From Rhizobium rhododendri (GTDB taxonomy: Bacteria > Pseudomonadota > Alphaproteobacteria > Rhizobiales > Rhizobiaceae): a stretch of DNA of 64,000 nt. The first letter of the stretch is position 1, and every line of letters begins with the position of its first letter. The position numbers and the translations under genes were made by a program. The stretch covers positions 744,001 to 808,000 of the forward strand of contig NZ_CP117267.1 in the NCBI RefSeq assembly GCF_007000325.2, in the 5' to 3' direction. This document shows, in pieces, positions 54,749 through 64,000 of this stretch. The notes beneath the pieces were generated by a model. That model worked only from the letters and a program-made list of their open reading frames with translations, searched no databases and was not told where the DNA came from.

Positions 54749-56179
<1,431 letters not shown>

Positions 56180-56187
<8 letters not shown>

Positions 56188-56665
56188 GCTTCGCCTCCGC
56201 TGGCCATGTGGCCGTATCGTGATCGGGATGCTGGTAGGAAACGATGTCCCCCAGGAACGGCAGGGCAGCGATGTCCTCCTCCGTCGGGTGCCCCGGTAGC
56301 TCCTGAAGATGGTCCACGAAGGCAATCTTGGCCTCGGTGCCATATTGCAGCTTGGGTGGCAGAACGGCAGGATTATCGAATGCGCCGGCGGCAAGAGCGA
56401 TGCCATCGGGCGCTTCATAGGTCAACGGCGTGCCGCATTCGTCACAAAATCCGCGAGCAACGATATTGGACGACTGAAAGCGCTTCGGCGTCCCACGTGT
56501 CCACTCCAGTACGGCGCTCCGAGTGGAGACCAGCGGTGCGTAATAGCCACCGAAGGCCTTCTGGCACATTCGACAATGACAGATCGAAACGTCCTCGAGC
56601 GATCCCTCGACTCGGAAGCGCACCGCACCGCATTGGCAGCCGCCGGAAAGCGTGACGTTGGTCAT
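56180..56665 (-). CDS. GFA-family zinc protein, copy 3
   Basis: 161 residues from ATG 56665. GGCQCGAVRFRVEG near residue 8, ICHCRMCQKAFGG near 28 and RGFCDECGTPLTYE near 72 are the GFA zinc ligands, very similar to copy 2. The tail QHPDHDTATWPAEAKHD ends the protein. It is the first gene of the unit GFA3-GFA2-pip-GFA1-cimA. The upstream frame to 56782 contains repeat DNA and is not part of the gene. Confidence 0.88.
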
Positions 56666-56749
56666 GGCGTGCCTCCCGTTGAGAGAGCGGTGGGGCACAA
56701 GGCGTCTGAGGTGCGCATTTTTGGAGGGATGGGCGTATGCGGCACGTTG

Positions 56750-56797
56750 CCCCCCTCTGTCACTGCGTGACATCTCCCCCACAAGGGGGGCGATTGG
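56750..56797. repeat. Intergenic palindromic repeat, left copy
   Basis: About 48 bases combining two small hairpins: TGTCAC-TGC-GTGACA and a C5/G5 stem around ACAA. The same unit occurs inverted at 56901-56950. Resembles the abundant intergenic mosaic repeats of rhizobia. Confidence 0.7.
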
Positions 56798-56900
56798 CTG
56801 GCGGCACGGTCTTGCGCTCCAGCTATCCTGGGAGTTTTCAGCAGCTTCTCTTTCAGATCAAGAGAGCGGAATGAAAAGACAACGTCGTCGCCGCACCCAA

Positions 56901-56950
56901 CCAATCTCCCCCCTTGTGGGGGAGATGTCACCGAAGGTGACAGAGGGGGG
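56901..56950. repeat. Intergenic palindromic repeat, right copy (inverted)
   Basis: Inverted counterpart of the repeat at 56750-56797, again with a C-run/G-run hairpin and a TGTCACC/GGTGACA stem. The two bracket about 100 bases that hold no recognised gene, so the pair looks like a small composite element. Confidence 0.7.
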
Positions 56951-56972
56951 TATGCCGCGGCAGCTGCAGGTA

Positions 56973-58415
56973 TCACCGCTTGATCTCCCAAGTGGTCACC
57001 CGCTCGCCTGTCGCGGCGTCCTTGCCGTCCTTCAGCTGCACACCCTTGGCAGAGAGCTCGTCGCGAACCTTGTCGGCATCGGCGAAATTCTTTGCCTTCA
57101 GCAGTTCGAGGCGCATCTGCACCAGCGCATTGATCGCCGCCGTCAGATTTGTTGAACTATGCTGGGAAGAAACCTTTGGGTTGTCAAAGATTAGACTGCT
57201 GCTGCGAGTTCGGAATTGGGCAAAAAAGGCGGTGATGTCGATGCCCAGCCATTCTAAGGAGGCTCGAAGGGCAGCCGGACTACTTTTTCTTAACGAGTGG
57301 AGTTCCGCAATCGCGCCAGAACTATCAAGGTCTCTCGCCCATGCGGCGATAAACCTCTGACTTGGCCTGCCAGCTGTCGAGTTGCCAACGGTCTTTCCCC
57401 ACGTAAAGAGCATGTGCTCCGCTTCCTCCAGCCGCTTCACCGAAAAGTCGATCGGCTCGCGGTAATGCGTCATCAGCATCGCCAGCCGCAGAACTTCGCC
57501 CTGCCATGTCCGTCCGCCGAGCTTGTCTGTTTCCAGTAGCTCGGCGATGGTGACGAAGTTGCCGTCGGATTTCGACATCTTGCGGCCTTCGACCTGCAGG
57601 AAGCCGTTGTGCATCCAGACATTGGCCATCACGGACGTACCGTGGGCGCAGCGCGACTGAGCGATCTCGTTCTCATGGTGCGGAAAGATCAGGTCGAGGC
57701 CGCCGCCGTGGATGTCGAAGACGTCGCCGAGGTACCGGCGGCTCATCGCCGAGCATTCGATATGCCAGCCCGGCCGGCCACGGCCCCAGGGGCTGTCCCA
57801 GCCGGGTTCGTCGGCATCGGACAGTTTCCACAGCACGAAGTCGCCGGGGTTCTTCTTGTGAACATCGACTGCGACCCGGGCGCCGGCCTGCTGCTCGTCG
57901 AGATTTCGCTTCGACAGCTGGCCGTAATCCGCCATCGACTTCGTGTCGAACAGCACCTCGCCCGCCGCCGCATAGGCATGGCCTTTCTCCACCAGCGCCT
58001 CGATGATCGAAATCATCTGACCGATGTTGTCAGTGGCGCGCGGCTGCACGGTCGGCTCGAGGCAGCCGAGCGCCATCACATCCTTCTGGTACTGGTTGTC
58101 GGTCTTTTCCGTGACCAGCCGGATGGCAGCATTGAGCTCCATGCCTGGATAGTCGCGAAGGGCGCGGGCGTTGATCTTGTCGTCGACATCAGTGATGTTG
58201 CGCACATAGGTGACGTTCTCCGGCCCATAGACCTGCCGGAGCAGCCGGAACAGCACGTCGAAGACGATAGCCGGGCGGGCGTTGCCGATATGGGCGAAAT
58301 CGTAGACCGTCGGGCCGCAGACATAGAGACGCACATTGCTGGCATCGATCGGCACAAACACGCTCTTTTCGCGCGTCAGGGTATTGTAAAATTTCAGCTC
58401 AGGCGTCCCGCCCAT
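56973..58415 (-). CDS. cysS: Cysteinyl-tRNA synthetase
   Basis: 480 residues from ATG 58415 (GGGAGAG eight bases upstream; the GTG at 58421 is too close). Class I motifs: the HIGH-type HIGN in [19 protein letters not shown] near 38, and [12 protein letters not shown] near 278. Zinc ligands start with the [11 protein letters not shown] cysteine and include the [10 protein letters not shown] cysteine near 225. It charges tRNA-Cys. About residues 330-440 look unlike other rhizobial CysS and are AT-richer at DNA level. The last 40 residues return to a normal sequence ([22 protein letters not shown]). Confidence 0.94.
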
Positions 58416-58646
58416 GTCCACTCTCCCAGATGCACGATCGAAAAAAATCGTCGCGGCCGGCGGACCGGGCGTTTCTCATCTTTGCGCAATGGGGAGACGA
58501 AAACGGCCAGGCCAGCGGTGCGCTAGCGAATAATTTTCCGGCAGATGCTGCAAATAGCTGTTTTCATGGCTGGCTTTATGGCGCGACACGGGATTTTGGT
58601 CAAGAGCAGCGGAGGCATCGCGGATGTAGTCTTGCGATTTATTGCC
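58416..58646. other. Intergenic region between cysS and the accessory cassette
   Basis: About 230 bases with no recognisable gene, likely carrying the cysS promoter on the minus strand. Confidence 0.5.
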
Positions 58647-59267
58647 TCATGCCTGACGCTTCCACTCATGCATGGCCTCGATTACTTCGACAGTCGGATA
58701 CTCCCTGATATCCTCCTCGGACGACCCGGCTGCGAGTTCGCGTTTCCAATACCATTCCTGAAAAGCCAGATATTCGCCGAGTATCTTGGAGGGGCTTACC
58801 CTTGCCGTTGAGGGTTGAGCGACGAGCCACGTTCGAGCATGCCTGACGGCTTTTGCGAAGTCGCCCTGGTGTGCTTGGATGTCCCAGCCTGCGATGTCGG
58901 ACAGCGACTTTTGATAGTCGAAGCGCTCCTGTTCGAGGATCAAAATGACCTTTTCCGACAACAGGGAATTTCCGAACCGCTTGCAGGCATGATCCATTCC
59001 GAGTTCGAACGGCATATTCATGCGAGAGTATTGCCCGATAGAGGTAGCCTGGCAACGGCTCAGATCATGGATTCCGTACTTGGAACCCTTGATAAGTTCA
59101 ACGATCTTTTCGAGGCGGCTTGCCGCGTTGTCACGGTTTTCTGGGGCCAATCGAGGAAAGAATCCGAGAAAAACCACGCAGAATGCAATGGCTTGGAGGA
59201 TCGGCGCAAAGGCTTCGTCAAACGGACAATTGATAAAAACCGAGCGTTCGAACGGAGGTTGCGCCAT
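58647..59267 (-). CDS. TIR/nucleoside-deoxyribosyltransferase-like protein
   Basis: 206 residues from ATG 59267. The first 135 residues look like a Rossmann-type domain: SVFINCPFDEAF (9-20), KYGIHDLSRCQ (63-73) and NMPFELGMDHACKRFG (84-99). The aspartate and the glutamate of F-E-L-G are placed like those of TIR and nucleoside deoxyribosyltransferase enzymes, which cleave N-glycosidic bonds of NAD or nucleosides. VILILEQERFDYQKSLSDIA near 107 follows; the C-terminal 60 residues are helical. Activity is inferred, not shown. It begins one base after the DUF2188 stop codon, so the two genes are one unit. Not a member of any family I can name with certainty. Confidence 0.75.
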   Translation of the reverse strand: MAQPPFERSVFINCPFDEAFAPILQAIAFCVVFLGFFPRLAPENRDNAASRLEKIVELIKGSKYGIHDLSRCQATSIGQYSRMNMPFELGMDHACKRFGNSLLSEKVILILEQERFDYQKSLSDIAGWDIQAHQGDFAKAVRHARTWLVAQPSTARVSPSKILGEYLAFQEWYWKRELAAGSSEEDIREYPTVEVIEAMHEWKRQA

Positions 59268-59268
59268 T

Positions 59269-59493
59269 CTAACGTTTCGATTGAGCGTGGTTTTCGCCAA
59301 ACGAGTTCCGCTCGCGAATTCGTCCGTCTTCGCCGTGAATGTAAAGTTCGGTTCCGTAGTTTCGAGCGATTGCGGTCGCGGCCTTGATAGCTTCATCTTG
59401 AGTGGCGTGGACACTTGTAGAACGCGCCGAGCCCGCCTTTCTGACGCTCCACTTTCCCGCTTGGGGCACAACATGCTGGGCTCTGCTTGTCAT
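59269..59493 (-). CDS. DUF2188 protein
   Basis: 74 residues from ATG 59493 (GAGGA upstream). The whole protein is the DUF2188 domain: QHVVPQAGKWSVRKAGSAR near 6, SVHATQDEAIKAATAIARN near 26, and TELYIHGEDGRIRERNSFG near 47. DUF2188 proteins are small and of unknown function, predicted to bind a partner or ligand through a two-stranded fold. Alternative upstream starts reach 59580. Being placed one base before the TIR-like gene suggests a paired function, perhaps sensor or antitoxin plus effector. Confidence 0.82.
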   Translation of the reverse strand: MTSRAQHVVPQAGKWSVRKAGSARSTSVHATQDEAIKAATAIARNYGTELYIHGEDGRIRERNSFGENHAQSKR

Positions 59494-59596
59494 CGCACGA
59501 TCCTCAATTCCGTGGTCGACCACGTCGGGCCAGTGAAAGCGATGTCGCTTTATACCCGGCAATGCAATGTTAGCATGCAACCCCGCTCGCGGCCAC

Positions 59597-60337
59597 CTAT
59601 TCCGGCAACCGGTAATCCACCAGCCTGTTCTCCCGCACCACGAACAGCTTGCCCGTCTCCGTTACATCGGGGCCGACCAGCCCCATGATGACCTCGGCTA
59701 CATCGCGGGGATGCTGCACGGTCTCGGGGTCTTCTCCGGGCATCGCCAGTGCCCGCATGGCAGTGCGGGTGGCGCCCGGGTCGAGGCTGGTGATGCGCAG
59801 CGGTGTGCCTTGTGTTTCCCCGGCCCATGTGCGGGCCAGGGCTTCGACGGCCGCCTTGGAGGCGGAGTAGGGGCCCCAGAAGGGCCGGCATTTATGGGCT
59901 GCGGAAGACGACAGGATGACGGCGCGACCGGCGTCTGAGCGCACCAGCAGCGGTTCGACGGAGCGGATCAGCCGCCACGTCGCGGTGACGTTGATCGTCA
60001 TGACCTTCTCGAAGACCTTCGCCTCGACATGGCCGATCGGCGAAATTGTCCCGAGCACACCGGCATTGGCAACGAGGATATCGAGCTTGCCCCAGCGCTC
60101 GAAGATCGAGCCGCCGAGCCGGTCGATGGCATCCATGTCGGCAAGGTCGAAGGGCACCAGCGTTGAACGTCCACCGACAGCCTTGATCGCGTCGTCCAGT
60201 TCTTCCAGTCCGCCGACGGTGCGGGCGCAGGCGATCACATGCGCGCCGGCCTTTGCCAGCTCCAGAGCGGTGAAATATCCGATGCCGCGCGAGGCGCCGG
60301 TGACCAGGGCAATCTTGTCCTGCAGGTTGACGCTCAT
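59597..60337 (-). CDS. Short-chain dehydrogenase/reductase
   Basis: 246 residues, classical SDR. Cofactor motif TGASRGIGYFTALELAKAG at residues 14-32 (T-G-x3-G-I-G), NAG in VANAGVLG near 92, catalytic serine in ILSSSAAH near 145 and the Y-x3-K in YSASKAAVEAL near 158. NAD(P)H-dependent reduction of an unidentified carbonyl compound. ATG 60337. It lies on the same strand after purF, about 90 bases downstream, as often seen in rhizobia. Confidence 0.93.
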   Translation of the reverse strand: MSVNLQDKIALVTGASRGIGYFTALELAKAGAHVIACARTVGGLEELDDAIKAVGGRSTLVPFDLADMDAIDRLGGSIFERWGKLDILVANAGVLGTISPIGHVEAKVFEKVMTINVTATWRLIRSVEPLLVRSDAGRAVILSSSAAHKCRPFWGPYSASKAAVEALARTWAGETQGTPLRITSLDPGATRTAMRALAMPGEDPETVQHPRDVAEVIMGLVGPDVTETGKLFVVRENRLVDYRLPE

Positions 60338-60424
60338 GATACCGAGTTCCGTTCGCAATTTTATGGGGCGATAATATGCCCCATAACAGACTATCGGTCA
60401 GTCCATCAAGCGCGGCTCTCGGCC

Positions 60425-61921
60425 TCAGCCGTTGCCGGCAAGCACCGATAGCTTGCGGACATTGTTGATGCTTTCCCGATCGAGCAACCGGGTCGGATAG
60501 TCGCCGGTGAAATAGTGGTCGGTGAACTGGGGTGCAACGGGATCGCGCGGCTCACCGCCGACAGCCCGGTAGAGGCCATCGATGGACAGGAAGGCGAGGC
60601 TGTCGGCGCCAATGAAGGCACACATGGCTTCGAGGTTCTCATACTGGTTGGCCAGCAGCTTGTCGGCGTCAGGCGTATCGATGCCATAGAAATCCGGGAA
60701 ATAGATCATTGGGCTGGCAACGCGAATGTGCACCTCGCTGGCGCCGGCCTCGCGGATCATCTGGACGATCTTCACAGATGTCGTGCCACGGACGATGGAA
60801 TCGTCGACGAGCACGACGCGCTTGCCTTCGAGGATGGCACGGTTGGCGGAGTGCTTCAGCTTGACGCCGAAGGCGCGGATCGACTGGGTCGGCTCGATAA
60901 AGGTCCGGCCGACATAGTGGTTGCGGATGATCCCGAGCTCGAACGGTATGCCGCTCGCCTGCGCGTAGCCGATTGCCGCCGGCGTGCCGCCATCCGGCAC
61001 GGGAACGACGAGGTCGGCCTCGACCGGCGCTTCGTTGGCCAGATTGATACCCATGTTGCGACGGGCGACGTAGACGTTGCGGCCGCCGACGACAGAGTCC
61101 GGGCGCGCGAAGTAGACATATTCGAACAGGCACAGCCGCTCGGGCTCGGGCTCGGGCTGATCGGCCTTGCGCGAATCGATGGTGATAGAGCCGTCGCTCT
61201 GGATCTCGCAGATGATGACTTCGCCGTTCTCGACGTCGCGGATATATTTCGCGCCGATGATGTCGAGCGCGCAGGTCTCCGAACAGAAGATCGGCTTGCC
61301 ATCGAGTTCGCCCATCACCAGCGGCCGGATGCCGATCGGATCGCGGGCGGCAATGAGTTTGGTACGGGTCATCGCCAGCATCGAGTAGCCGCCTTCCATC
61401 TGGCGGATAGCATCGATGAAGCGGTCGGAAGAGGAAGCATGCTTGGAACGAGCGATCAAGTGCAGCACGACTTCGGTGTCGGACGTCGACTGGCAGATGG
61501 CGCCGTCGGCAATCAGCATGCGGCGCATTGTCAGACCGTTGGTGAAGTTGCCGTTATGGGCAATAGCGATGCCGCCGACTTCCAGTTCGGCAAACAGCGG
61601 CTGGACGTTGCGAAGGATCGTCTCACCCGTGGTCGAGTAGCGGACATGGCCGATGGCGCGGTCGCCGGGCAGGCGGGCTAGGGTTGCCGGATCCGTATAG
61701 TGGTCCCCGACCAGACCCATGCGGCGCTCCGAATGAAAGCGCTGACCATCGAAGACGACCATGCCGGCTGCTTCCTGGCCGCGGTGCTGCAGGGCGTGCA
61801 GGCCGAGCGCCGTCAGGGTCGCAGCGTCCGAGTGTCCGAGGATGCCGAACACGCCGCACTCTTCGTGCAGTGTGTCGCCGTCGATGTCGTTATCGATTTC
61901 AGGGGATGGTGACAGGGTCAT
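60425..61921 (-). CDS. purF: Amidophosphoribosyltransferase
   Basis: 498 residues. The class II glutaminase N terminus is exposed after a short propeptide ending EE-CGVFGI (Cys near 23). HRGQEAAGM near 47 and the GNFTNG loop near 123 are in the glutaminase domain; the PRPP loop VVLVDDSIVRGTTS near 368 marks the transferase domain. It catalyses the first committed step of purine synthesis. ATG 61921. Operon order radA-cvpA-purF-SDR is conserved in Rhizobiaceae. Confidence 0.97.
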   Translation of the reverse strand: MTLSPSPEIDNDIDGDTLHEECGVFGILGHSDAATLTALGLHALQHRGQEAAGMVVFDGQRFHSERRMGLVGDHYTDPATLARLPGDRAIGHVRYSTTGETILRNVQPLFAELEVGGIAIAHNGNFTNGLTMRRMLIADGAICQSTSDTEVVLHLIARSKHASSSDRFIDAIRQMEGGYSMLAMTRTKLIAARDPIGIRPLVMGELDGKPIFCSETCALDIIGAKYIRDVENGEVIICEIQSDGSITIDSRKADQPEPEPERLCLFEYVYFARPDSVVGGRNVYVARRNMGINLANEAPVEADLVVPVPDGGTPAAIGYAQASGIPFELGIIRNHYVGRTFIEPTQSIRAFGVKLKHSANRAILEGKRVVLVDDSIVRGTTSVKIVQMIREAGASEVHIRVASPMIYFPDFYGIDTPDADKLLANQYENLEAMCAFIGADSLAFLSIDGLYRAVGGEPRDPVAPQFTDHYFTGDYPTRLLDRESINNVRKLSVLAGNG

Positions 61922-62078
61922 GGCTGAAGGCCTTTGCTCTCACGGGGTTCGGGCAGCGCTGGGGCTGGGATCCAAAATAACTGAAAATCCGGCCGGGCGA
62001 TATGCCTGGCCGGATAGGGTCGTCGGTGCCGATCAGATGGCGATGCCAGCCAAACGGGTCAAGCCTGGTGACGCAGCG

Positions 62079-62720
62079 TCAATTGTTCGTCGCCGGAGCG
62101 GCAGGTGTCGTCGTCGGTGCCGCTGGCGAAGCCGGTGCGTCGTCCGATGGGGCTGCATCGCTCGGTGCGGCCGCGTCATCGTTCAACTGCTGCTTTTCCG
62201 GCTGGATCTTGTCGATAACGTTGGTCCGGATCATCTGCGCGAATTTCTCCGGCAATGCAGCCTCCAGCTTGACCACCATCGAATCGAGGAAAGGCTTGGA
62301 CTTGGCATTGTTGACCCAATCGGGGCGGTGCGGCTCGTCGACGAGCCAGTTCCAGAAGGCAACGGCGACGACCAGCAGCAGCACGCCACGGGCGGCGCCG
62401 AAAAGGAAACCGAGCGTGCGGTCGAGCGCGCCAATGCGGCTGTCGATGATGAAATCGGCGATCTTCATAGTGATGAACGAGATGATGATCAGCGCGATGA
62501 GGAAGACGACTGCGGCCGAGCCAACGATGGCGATACGATCGTCATCTGTGTAGTGCTTGGCGTATGGCACCAGCTTCGGGTAAAGATAGTAGGCCGCAAC
62601 GGCCGAGCCGCCCCAGCTGACGATCGACAGAATTTCGCGGGAGAAGCCGCGTACCATGGCGAGAACGGCGGAAAACAGCACGACGCCGATAACAATACCG
62701 TCGAAAATCGTAATGGGCAT
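62079..62720 (-). CDS. cvpA: CvpA-family membrane protein
   Basis: 213 residues. Four membrane helices: MPITIFDGIVIGVVLFSAVL, REILSIVSWGGSAVAAYYLY, IVGSAAVVFLIALIIISFIT near 66, and GVLLLVVAVAFWNWLVDEP near 113, followed by a Pro/Ala-rich C-terminal tail (APSDAAPSDDAPAS). CvpA was named for colicin V production and is also needed for envelope integrity. Located upstream of purF as in many proteobacteria, 157 bases away. Confidence 0.92.
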   Translation of the reverse strand: MPITIFDGIVIGVVLFSAVLAMVRGFSREILSIVSWGGSAVAAYYLYPKLVPYAKHYTDDDRIAIVGSAAVVFLIALIIISFITMKIADFIIDSRIGALDRTLGFLFGAARGVLLLVVAVAFWNWLVDEPHRPDWVNNAKSKPFLDSMVVKLEAALPEKFAQMIRTNVIDKIQPEKQQLNDDAAAPSDAAPSDDAPASPAAPTTTPAAPATNN

Positions 62721-62805
62721 CTATACTTTACTCCAAGACTTGCCATGGGCGCCATGGCTATCGTCTGCCTGAATGCGTCTTGCCTCGTCGCCAGAGCGAA
62801 AAGGT

Positions 62806-64000
62806 TCAGTCCTCGTCTTCCGTCGGCCGCAGTGCGCCCTTCGATCCGGCGACCCTGACCACCATGTCGGTCAGGCTGTCGATCTCGTTCCAGCGGCCGC
62901 CGCTGCCTTTCGGCAGTTCAGCCGAGCCGGATGGTAGGAGCGCTTGCGCAAAGCCCAGCTTCTCGGCTTCCTTCAGGCGTTGTGCCGTATGGCCCACGGG
63001 CCGCACGGCGCCAGAAAGACTGACTTCGCCGAAATAGACGCAATCGGCGGGAAGGGCAATACCGGCAAGGGATGAAACCAGTGCAGAGGCCACCGCAAGG
63101 TCGGCCGCCGGCTCCGAAATCCGGTAGCCGCCGGCGATGTTCAGGTAGACATCGTGGCTGCCAAGCCGCACGCCGCAGTGGGCCTCGAGCACCGCAAGGA
63201 TCATCGATAGCCGCGACGAATCCCAGCCGACGACCGCGCGCCGTGCTGTTCCGAGCGACGTCGGCGCCACCAGCGCCTGTACCTCGACGAGGATCGGCCG
63301 CGTTCCCTCCATGCCGGCAAAGACGGCAGCACCTGGCGATTTGGAGTTGCGCTCACCCAGAAAAAGCTCTGACGGATTGGCGACTTCACGAAGCCCGATA
63401 TCCGACATCTCGAAAACGCCGATCTCGTCCGTCGGGCCGAAGCGGTTCTTGACGGTGCGCAGGATACGGTAGTGATGGCCACGGTCGCCCTCGAAGTAGA
63501 GCACCGCATCGACCATGTGCTCGACGACCCGCGGCCCGGCGATCTGGCCATCCTTGGTGACATGGCCGACCAGCACCATGGCGGAACCTGTCTGCTTGGC
63601 AAAGCGGATCATCGCCTGCACGCCGGTGCGCACTTGGGTGACGGTGCCGGGCGCCGATTCGGCAAGCTCGCTCCACAGGGTCTGGATGGAATCGATGATG
63701 ACCAGATCCGGTCGCTTGCCATCGGCGAGCGTCGCCAGGATATCCTCGACATTCGTCTCGGCCGCCAGCATCACGTCTGTATCGGCTGCCTTCAGCCGCT
63801 GTGCCCGCAGCCGGATCTGGGCAACCGCCTCTTCGCCCGAGACGTAGACGATCTTGTGGCCTCGTCTGGCAAGCGCGGCTGCCGCCTGCATCAGCAGCGT
63901 CGACTTGCCGATGCCCGGATCTCCGCCGACCAGCACTGCCGAGCCACGCACAAAGCCGCCGCCCGTCGCCCGGTCGAGTTCGGAAATGCCGGTATAAATC
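62806..64000 (-). CDS. radA: DNA repair protein RadA (5' partial)
   Basis: About 398 residues visible; the gene continues past the window end (sequence reads ELDRATGGGF before the first internal ATG). RecA-like ATPase: Walker A GGDPGIGKSTLL, then VYVSGEEAVAQIRLRAQRL and Walker B LVIIDSIQTL, the RadA-specific KNRFG motif in KNRFGPTDEIGVFEM, and a C-terminal Lon-protease-like domain (GDSSRL region, SSLAGIALP). It drives branch migration in recombinational repair. The N-terminal zinc finger lies outside. High confidence. Confidence 0.95.
   Translation of the reverse strand, partial: IYTGISELDRATGGGFVRGSAVLVGGDPGIGKSTLLMQAAAALARRGHKIVYVSGEEAVAQIRLRAQRLKAADTDVMLAAETNVEDILATLADGKRPDLVIIDSIQTLWSELAESAPGTVTQVRTGVQAMIRFAKQTGSAMVLVGHVTKDGQIAGPRVVEHMVDAVLYFEGDRGHHYRILRTVKNRFGPTDEIGVFEMSDIGLREVANPSELFLGERNSKSPGAAVFAGMEGTRPILVEVQALVAPTSLGTARRAVVGWDSSRLSMILAVLEAHCGVRLGSHDVYLNIAGGYRISEPAADLAVASALVSSLAGIALPADCVYFGEVSLSGAVRPVGHTAQRLKEAEKLGFAQALLPSGSAELPKGSGGRWNEIDSLTDMVVRVAGSKGALRPTEDED

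Follow-up and report, generated by a model that had tools for sequence, protein, structure and literature searches.

The stretch analysed here, hereafter the window, comprises 64,000 nucleotides of Rhizobium rhododendri (contig NZ_CP117267.1, positions 744,001 to 808,000). At 58647-59493 it carries a pair of small genes encoding a DUF2188 protein and, after a single base, a 206-residue protein with a predicted TIR-like fold. An earlier note made from the DNA alone had described these two open reading frames (ORFs), which we found as reported and assigned to the minus strand. Also present were the motifs it had drawn on (VFINCPFDE, YGIHDLSR and NMPFELG, at residues 10-18, 64-71 and 84-90) and the flanking cysS and SDR genes, both named by reading the ORF sequences. 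The one-base spacer suggests that the two genes are probably co-transcribed and translationally coupled. In relatives the spacing ranged from -8 to +40 and was most often +2, +3 or -4 (78 loci with an assignable start, which L010 and L074 lacked; two copies of the window's own locus were also counted). By their gap, these are two small adjacent genes that are probably read together, as in type II toxin-antitoxin systems. The source genome holds one copy of the enzyme gene and three DUF2188 matches, and the enzyme protein of Rhizobium sp. L51/94 (L004) is identical to that of the window.

AlphaFold2 modelled the enzyme with high confidence as a five-strand beta-alpha fold, with strands A-E at residues 9-13, 37-39, 64-68, 107-112 and 130-132 and the invariant E88 near the start of helix C (84-98). 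A glutamate on helix C in this topology is characteristic of the flavodoxin-like folds of TIR domains and nucleoside 2-deoxyribosyltransferases (NDTs), so the predicted structure agrees with the fold originally proposed. Foldseek and VIA matches of the model were likewise of TIR/NDT fold; the top Foldseek match among viral models was labelled CAP12/Pycsar effector TIR (E 4.6e-5), and the TIR domains of SPARTA were among the best structural matches. Across 38 diverse enzymes, F11, N13, C14, F16, F29, R51, H67, D68, R82, N84, E88, G90, S123, D124, D129 and H133 were invariant. Most of these residues fall where the pocket of a TIR domain would be: where strands A, C and E of the prediction end or just beyond, or where helices B and C begin. 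Glu88 is the expected catalytic residue.

Searches of the window enzyme against Pfam, NCBIfam, PADLOC and PHROGs gave no matching model, and no Pfam family appeared at E values up to 1. Scans based on these four collections would overlook the enzyme because none of their models recognises it. We aligned a wide profile of the enzyme family with three CAP12-type sequences (L141, L142, L143) and five NDT sequences, using 20 shuffles of each. Glu88 aligned onto the conserved glutamate of all three CAP12-type sequences, whose scores exceeded those of all 20 shuffles (23.4 vs 18.9, 25.4 vs 17.4 and 23.7 vs 21.7). The motif RxNxxxExG was in register with L141, L142 and L143, at pair E-values of 0.002-0.011 and probabilities of only 4-12%, and a second motif, SDxxG (SD/SN-x-x-G), aligned only with L143 and, in an alignment from a first, narrower profile, with L141. 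One of the five NDT sequences clearly beat its shuffles (24.1 vs 17.2) and one tied (20.0), and the NDT family PF05014 matched neither the window enzyme nor any sequence in scans of 63 and 38 members.

A contig scan found 206 relatives, of which the best 80 were kept, a sample that favours close relatives of the window. A DUF2188 gene lay directly upstream on the same strand in all 80, and pairwise distances of enzyme and DUF2188 were correlated (Mantel r 0.70 for 76 of the 80 loci; no value above 0.24 in 999 permutations). The pairing proposed by the earlier note is therefore conserved, but DUF2188 is not the sole partner, as a sister clade has other small basic ORFs. Over all loci there were 107 distinct enzyme sequences, four of them pieces of two broken genes (L072, L074), which left 103 that were near full length, counting L059, whose start is lost by a frameshift. 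Upstream of these 103 we found DUF2188 in 86 and another small ORF in 17, counts that stand without a baseline from random genes, and whose ratio is no census because of the bias towards close relatives. None of the 103 lacked a small upstream ORF, the pattern of a toxin not found without its antitoxin, as regards presence and not function.

The enzyme tree (n=103) had two well-supported sides, with 84 DUF2188-paired enzymes on one and 19 others on the second. Seventeen of these 19 were paired with the other small basic ORFs, and the remaining two, the near-identical L174 and L176, with a DUF2188 protein that has a C-terminal extension, nested inside the non-DUF2188 side. The branches starred in the tree force two partner changes, in a tree whose bootstrap had not converged completely and in which several distant members have long branches. 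By eye, the extension in L174 and L176 looks similar to the tail helix that the other partners have; a motif test gave no confirmation of this for L174. The other partners are short, diverse in sequence and very basic, with an isoelectric point (pI) of 10.3-12.0 (14 of 17; starts set by eye). Median pI was 10.4 for DUF2188 (n=55), 11.2 for other partners (n=14) and 5.5 for enzymes (n=63); the window's own proteins have values of 10.3 (DUF2188) and 6.0 (enzyme).

The partner also occurs alone. DUF2188 was present in 16 of 142 genomes of the class (18 matches), with the enzyme adjacent in two, the window and L126. No enzyme lay within about 1.5 kb of 16 of the 18 matches, or of 8 of the 10 matches above 65 bits. 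Examples include DUF2188 genes beside helix-turn-helix (HTH) or ImmA/IrrE genes (L127-L129, L131) and a DUF4917 gene (L130). At L127:454-3179, an enzyme-less DUF2188 gene has an HTH and ImmA/IrrE pair on one side; on the other is a gene whose multiubiquitin match stays below threshold, and after it a ThiF gene. Three of the 80 loci (L059, L072, L074) have a broken enzyme gene beside an intact DUF2188 gene, with assembly errors possible. In Sinorhizobium (plasmid records H2-H5 and locus L072) the enzyme was matched in pieces, three of them in H2-H5, and DUF2188 was annotated or intact.

The window's DUF2188 protein matched PF09954 at 84.7 bits (cut-off 22), and its model (pLDDT 86.2) has a beta-beta-beta-alpha-beta-beta order with a low-confidence C-terminal tail. 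It also matched the PADLOC candidate PDC-S16, the S of which we take to stand for a single gene, through the hidden Markov models PDLC04942 (101.3 bits) and PDLC04941 (99.2 bits). The cassette had been called undescribed, which holds for the enzyme but not for this partner. Among the open-licence papers listed, no title or abstract opening named a DUF2188-TIR pair, nothing was found on PDC-S16, and none of the papers on DUF2188 concerned defence by title or abstract opening.

The cassette is accessory and patchily distributed. The enzyme family profile matched in five of 100 genus genomes, two of them with DUF2188 pairs (the source genome of the window and another from that species). In wider surveys, which overlap in part, it matched in 5 of 289 genomes of the class, 8 of 398 of the phylum and 3 of 321 of another class. 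Searching 31 genus genomes for the SDR gene gave 30 loci; in 28, counting that of the window, the surrounding stretch also contained cysS. In cassette-free relatives SDR and cysS are separated by a short gap or by other genes, among them a GH25-like gene (named by eye). In one genus member (L113) the place of the cassette after the SDR gene is taken by a pair read by eye as a PemIK-like toxin-antitoxin unit. Against 29 cassette-free genus relatives, blastn homology ended near 59596 and resumed near 58606, with both edges seen in 27 of the 29. Because the first falls on the stop codon of the SDR gene and the second on what is likely the promoter of cysS, these edges are not proven junctions. 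G+C content was 0.52-0.56 across the pair and 0.56-0.68 in the rest of 55000-64000.

In eight Rhizobiaceae loci of the 80, L004 included, the cassette likewise has SDR on one side and cysS on the other. Six of them (L027, L030, L035-L037, L039) have some 2.5-3 kb extra before cysS, and the eighth, L074, is broken and was left out of the tree. In the tree these six share a starred branch with a copy from Sphingopyxis, and the window enzyme stands apart from them, which suggests that the cassette reached the site more than once or that genes were replaced there.

The pair seems to have its own promoter, since -10-like and ribosome sites exceed their numbers in shuffles: TANNNT within -52..-20 was found in 52 of the 80 loci (28 in shuffles; the window's copy sits further up) and 72 loci had a ribosome site, against 12 in shuffles. 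The window's own promoter and ribosome site likely lie at 59502-59554 (Table 1). The window's palindrome was absent from 19 other loci examined; L044 has a 14-bp palindrome too, of different sequence. A 14-codon ORF that includes two Cys codons (58523-58567, minus strand) lies between cysS and its likely promoter and looks like a cysteine-responsive leader peptide for attenuation of cysS. A near-identical copy was seen in the four relatives examined, and the region had no match in Rfam.

Table 1. Features of the cassette and its surroundings, in window coordinates
Feature	Position	Strand	Remark
DUF2188 gene, first of pair	59269-59493	minus	74 aa
TIR-like enzyme gene, second of pair	58647-59267	minus	206 aa
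Spacer between the two genes	59268	minus	one base
Likely ribosome site GAGG	59502-59505	minus	read from sequence
Perfect 14-bp palindrome	59511-59524		between ribosome site and TATAAA, upstream of DUF2188
-10-like TATAAA	59549-59554	minus	at about -61..-56; read from sequence
Accessory segment, approximate	58608-59594		blastn homology break
Downstream flank, ORF named cysS	56973-58421		named by reading sequence, no family scan
Upstream flank, ORF named SDR	59597 upward		named by reading sequence, no family scan

We propose, giving it an even chance, that the pair is a compact immune or toxin-antitoxin-like module in which a TIR glycosidase is controlled by a small basic partner. The 206-residue protein would be a stand-alone TIR-family glycosidase, closest in its motifs to CAP12/Pycsar-effector TIRs, which when active would cleave NAD+ or a related nucleotide, so that the cell stops. 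The upstream protein, DUF2188 here and other basic ORFs elsewhere, would bind the acidic enzyme and control it, most likely as an inhibitor whose hold ends on infection or when the partner is lost. Like the earlier note, we infer a role in defence or as a toxin-antitoxin unit.

Defence genes surround some copies. Matches to PADLOC models at E 1e-50 or better, a threshold picked after the tables had been seen, were found for 10 of 143 neighbour proteins (50 loci) and for one of 143 control proteins (20 stretches; p 0.010). The neighbours matched dCTPase, cyclase, TIR-APAZ, DRT2, ThsA, ThsB, LmuA, MzaA, capP and mREase_IV, and the control PDC-M65B. At L006 the cassette lies between DRT2 and Thoeris genes; at L007 it comes after a type IV restriction gene, and TIR-APAZ is encoded close by; at L013 it has a dCTPase neighbour; at L028 it precedes the Lamassu gene LmuA; and at L062 a CBASS phospholipase and cyclase precede it by 2 kb. 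At L065 it is directly behind a capP-like gene; there, in a Geobacter metagenome-assembled genome (L065:3448-5624), an unknown 143-residue protein, a capP-like ImmA/IrrE protein, DUF2188 and the TIR-like enzyme form a same-strand run, which may be an extended form of the module. Copies also occur in 17 plasmid records, in pieces in four of these, and in eight IMG/VR contigs.

Several results weigh against the proposed module, in addition to the late choice of that threshold and the absent baseline for upstream ORFs. Counted per locus, the defence association was not significant (7 of 50 vs 1 of 20, p 0.42; the seven are the six loci above and an MzaA match whose locus is untraced), and no match was found among 50,697 phage records. 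The structure comparison ties TIR with the nucleotide hydrolase DNPH1. No member of the enzyme family had a significant sequence match to any TIR family: PF10137 (CAP12-PCTIR), the best Pfam lead, appeared at E 0.0089 in one of 63 members and in three of 38 in a second scan (E 0.013 at best), and neither the enzyme nor any member reached its gathering score. HHalign probabilities to TIR and NDT sequences were all below 14%, and a first, narrower enzyme profile gave no support for a TIR/NDT alignment. No common operator palindrome was seen: 14 of the 80 loci have some palindrome (6.8 in shuffles, range 2-13), with sequences that differ.

An alternative is that the enzyme is a nucleotide N-glycosidase of NDT/DNPH1/MilB type, and that the pair sanitises or starves the nucleotide pool, acting on a particular (modified or phage-made) nucleotide and leaving NAD+ undepleted. 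We regard this as unlikely, given that all three CAP12-type sequences beat their shuffles and only one of five NDT sequences clearly did so, and that Pfam leads, below cut-off, pointed to CAP12-PCTIR only, with no match to PF05014. A serious rival to the inhibitor role, if still a somewhat unlikely one, is that the partner is a sensor or activator: a basic DUF2188 protein would bind phage or host nucleic acid and turn on an otherwise harmless enzyme, as in guide-loaded SPARTA. The strongly basic character of the measured partners, their exchangeability, which is frequent among sensors, and the SPARTA TIRs among the best structural matches are all consistent with this role. The common occurrence of the partner without the enzyme, with the reverse not seen, is instead the pattern of a toxin and its antidote, although a lone sensor could be harmless too.

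A selfish or stress-responsive toxin-antitoxin unit with no anti-phage role would also have two small genes, partner first and overlapping or nearly so, and would fit both the patchy distribution in the genus and the PemIK-like unit after the SDR gene in L113. Copies adjoining Thoeris, DRT2, CBASS or Lamassu genes argue against this reading, which we consider rather improbable. Metabolic and housekeeping families are the commonest Pfam families around the cassette (among the top 25 of 205), which counts against the proposed module and is what a conventional metabolic enzyme that has a small accessory subunit and no role in conflict would predict, as are the positions shared within clades (5 groups, 11 of 50 loci). 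Such an enzyme is very unlikely in view of the horizontally mixed tree, in which for example Xanthomonas dyei (L023) falls within an alphaproteobacterial clade, the plasmid and IMG/VR copies, and the rarity in genome surveys.

Most TIR executioners studied so far are either part of a fusion with a larger sensor or are driven by one. If our proposal is correct, such a minimal pair, its swappable partner about 50-130 residues long, would be a very small switch, partner switching would let one executioner answer different triggers, and the pair would give DUF2188 its first function and explain PDC-S16. More tentatively, the pair may represent an unnamed new class, a stand-alone TIR-like NAD or nucleotide glycosidase set by an obligatory, exchangeable small basic partner, with DUF2188 one of several.

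Among known systems, PDC-S16 shares the DUF2188 gene, which matches its models at 101 bits, and differs in that no PADLOC model covers the enzyme. The enzyme has no PADLOC match to the Thoeris protein ThsB, which at L006 is a separate gene. SPARTA, a TIR-APAZ protein with a short Argonaute, does not fit: 206 residues leave no room for APAZ, the adjoining ORFs read as cysS and SDR, and no Argonaute-like ORF was seen beside the pair on reading the ORFs by eye. Compared with DNPH1, MilB and the NDTs, the enzyme shows weaker motif agreement and no PF05014 match. Swarozyc/DUF4062 proteins are described as sequence-divergent TIR-like NADases with one conserved glutamate, patchy in prokaryotes and often with auxiliary domains within the same protein (PMC13174449). 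Our enzyme is similarly divergent and patchy with one conserved glutamate, but has no Pfam DUF4062 match, and its partner is a separate gene. Unlike CAP12/Pycsar-effector TIRs (PF10137; TIR-STING, PycTIR), the enzyme falls below the Pfam cut-off, has no STING or cyclic-nucleotide-binding domain in its 206 residues, and is paired with a small basic protein, with no cyclase beside the window pair. The known members of that group are immunity NADases. The enzyme resembles them in its predicted fold and may share with them the RxNxxxExG motif around the glutamate, in register in all three sequences compared, and the SD/SN-x-x-G motif further on, aligned in L143 and L141.
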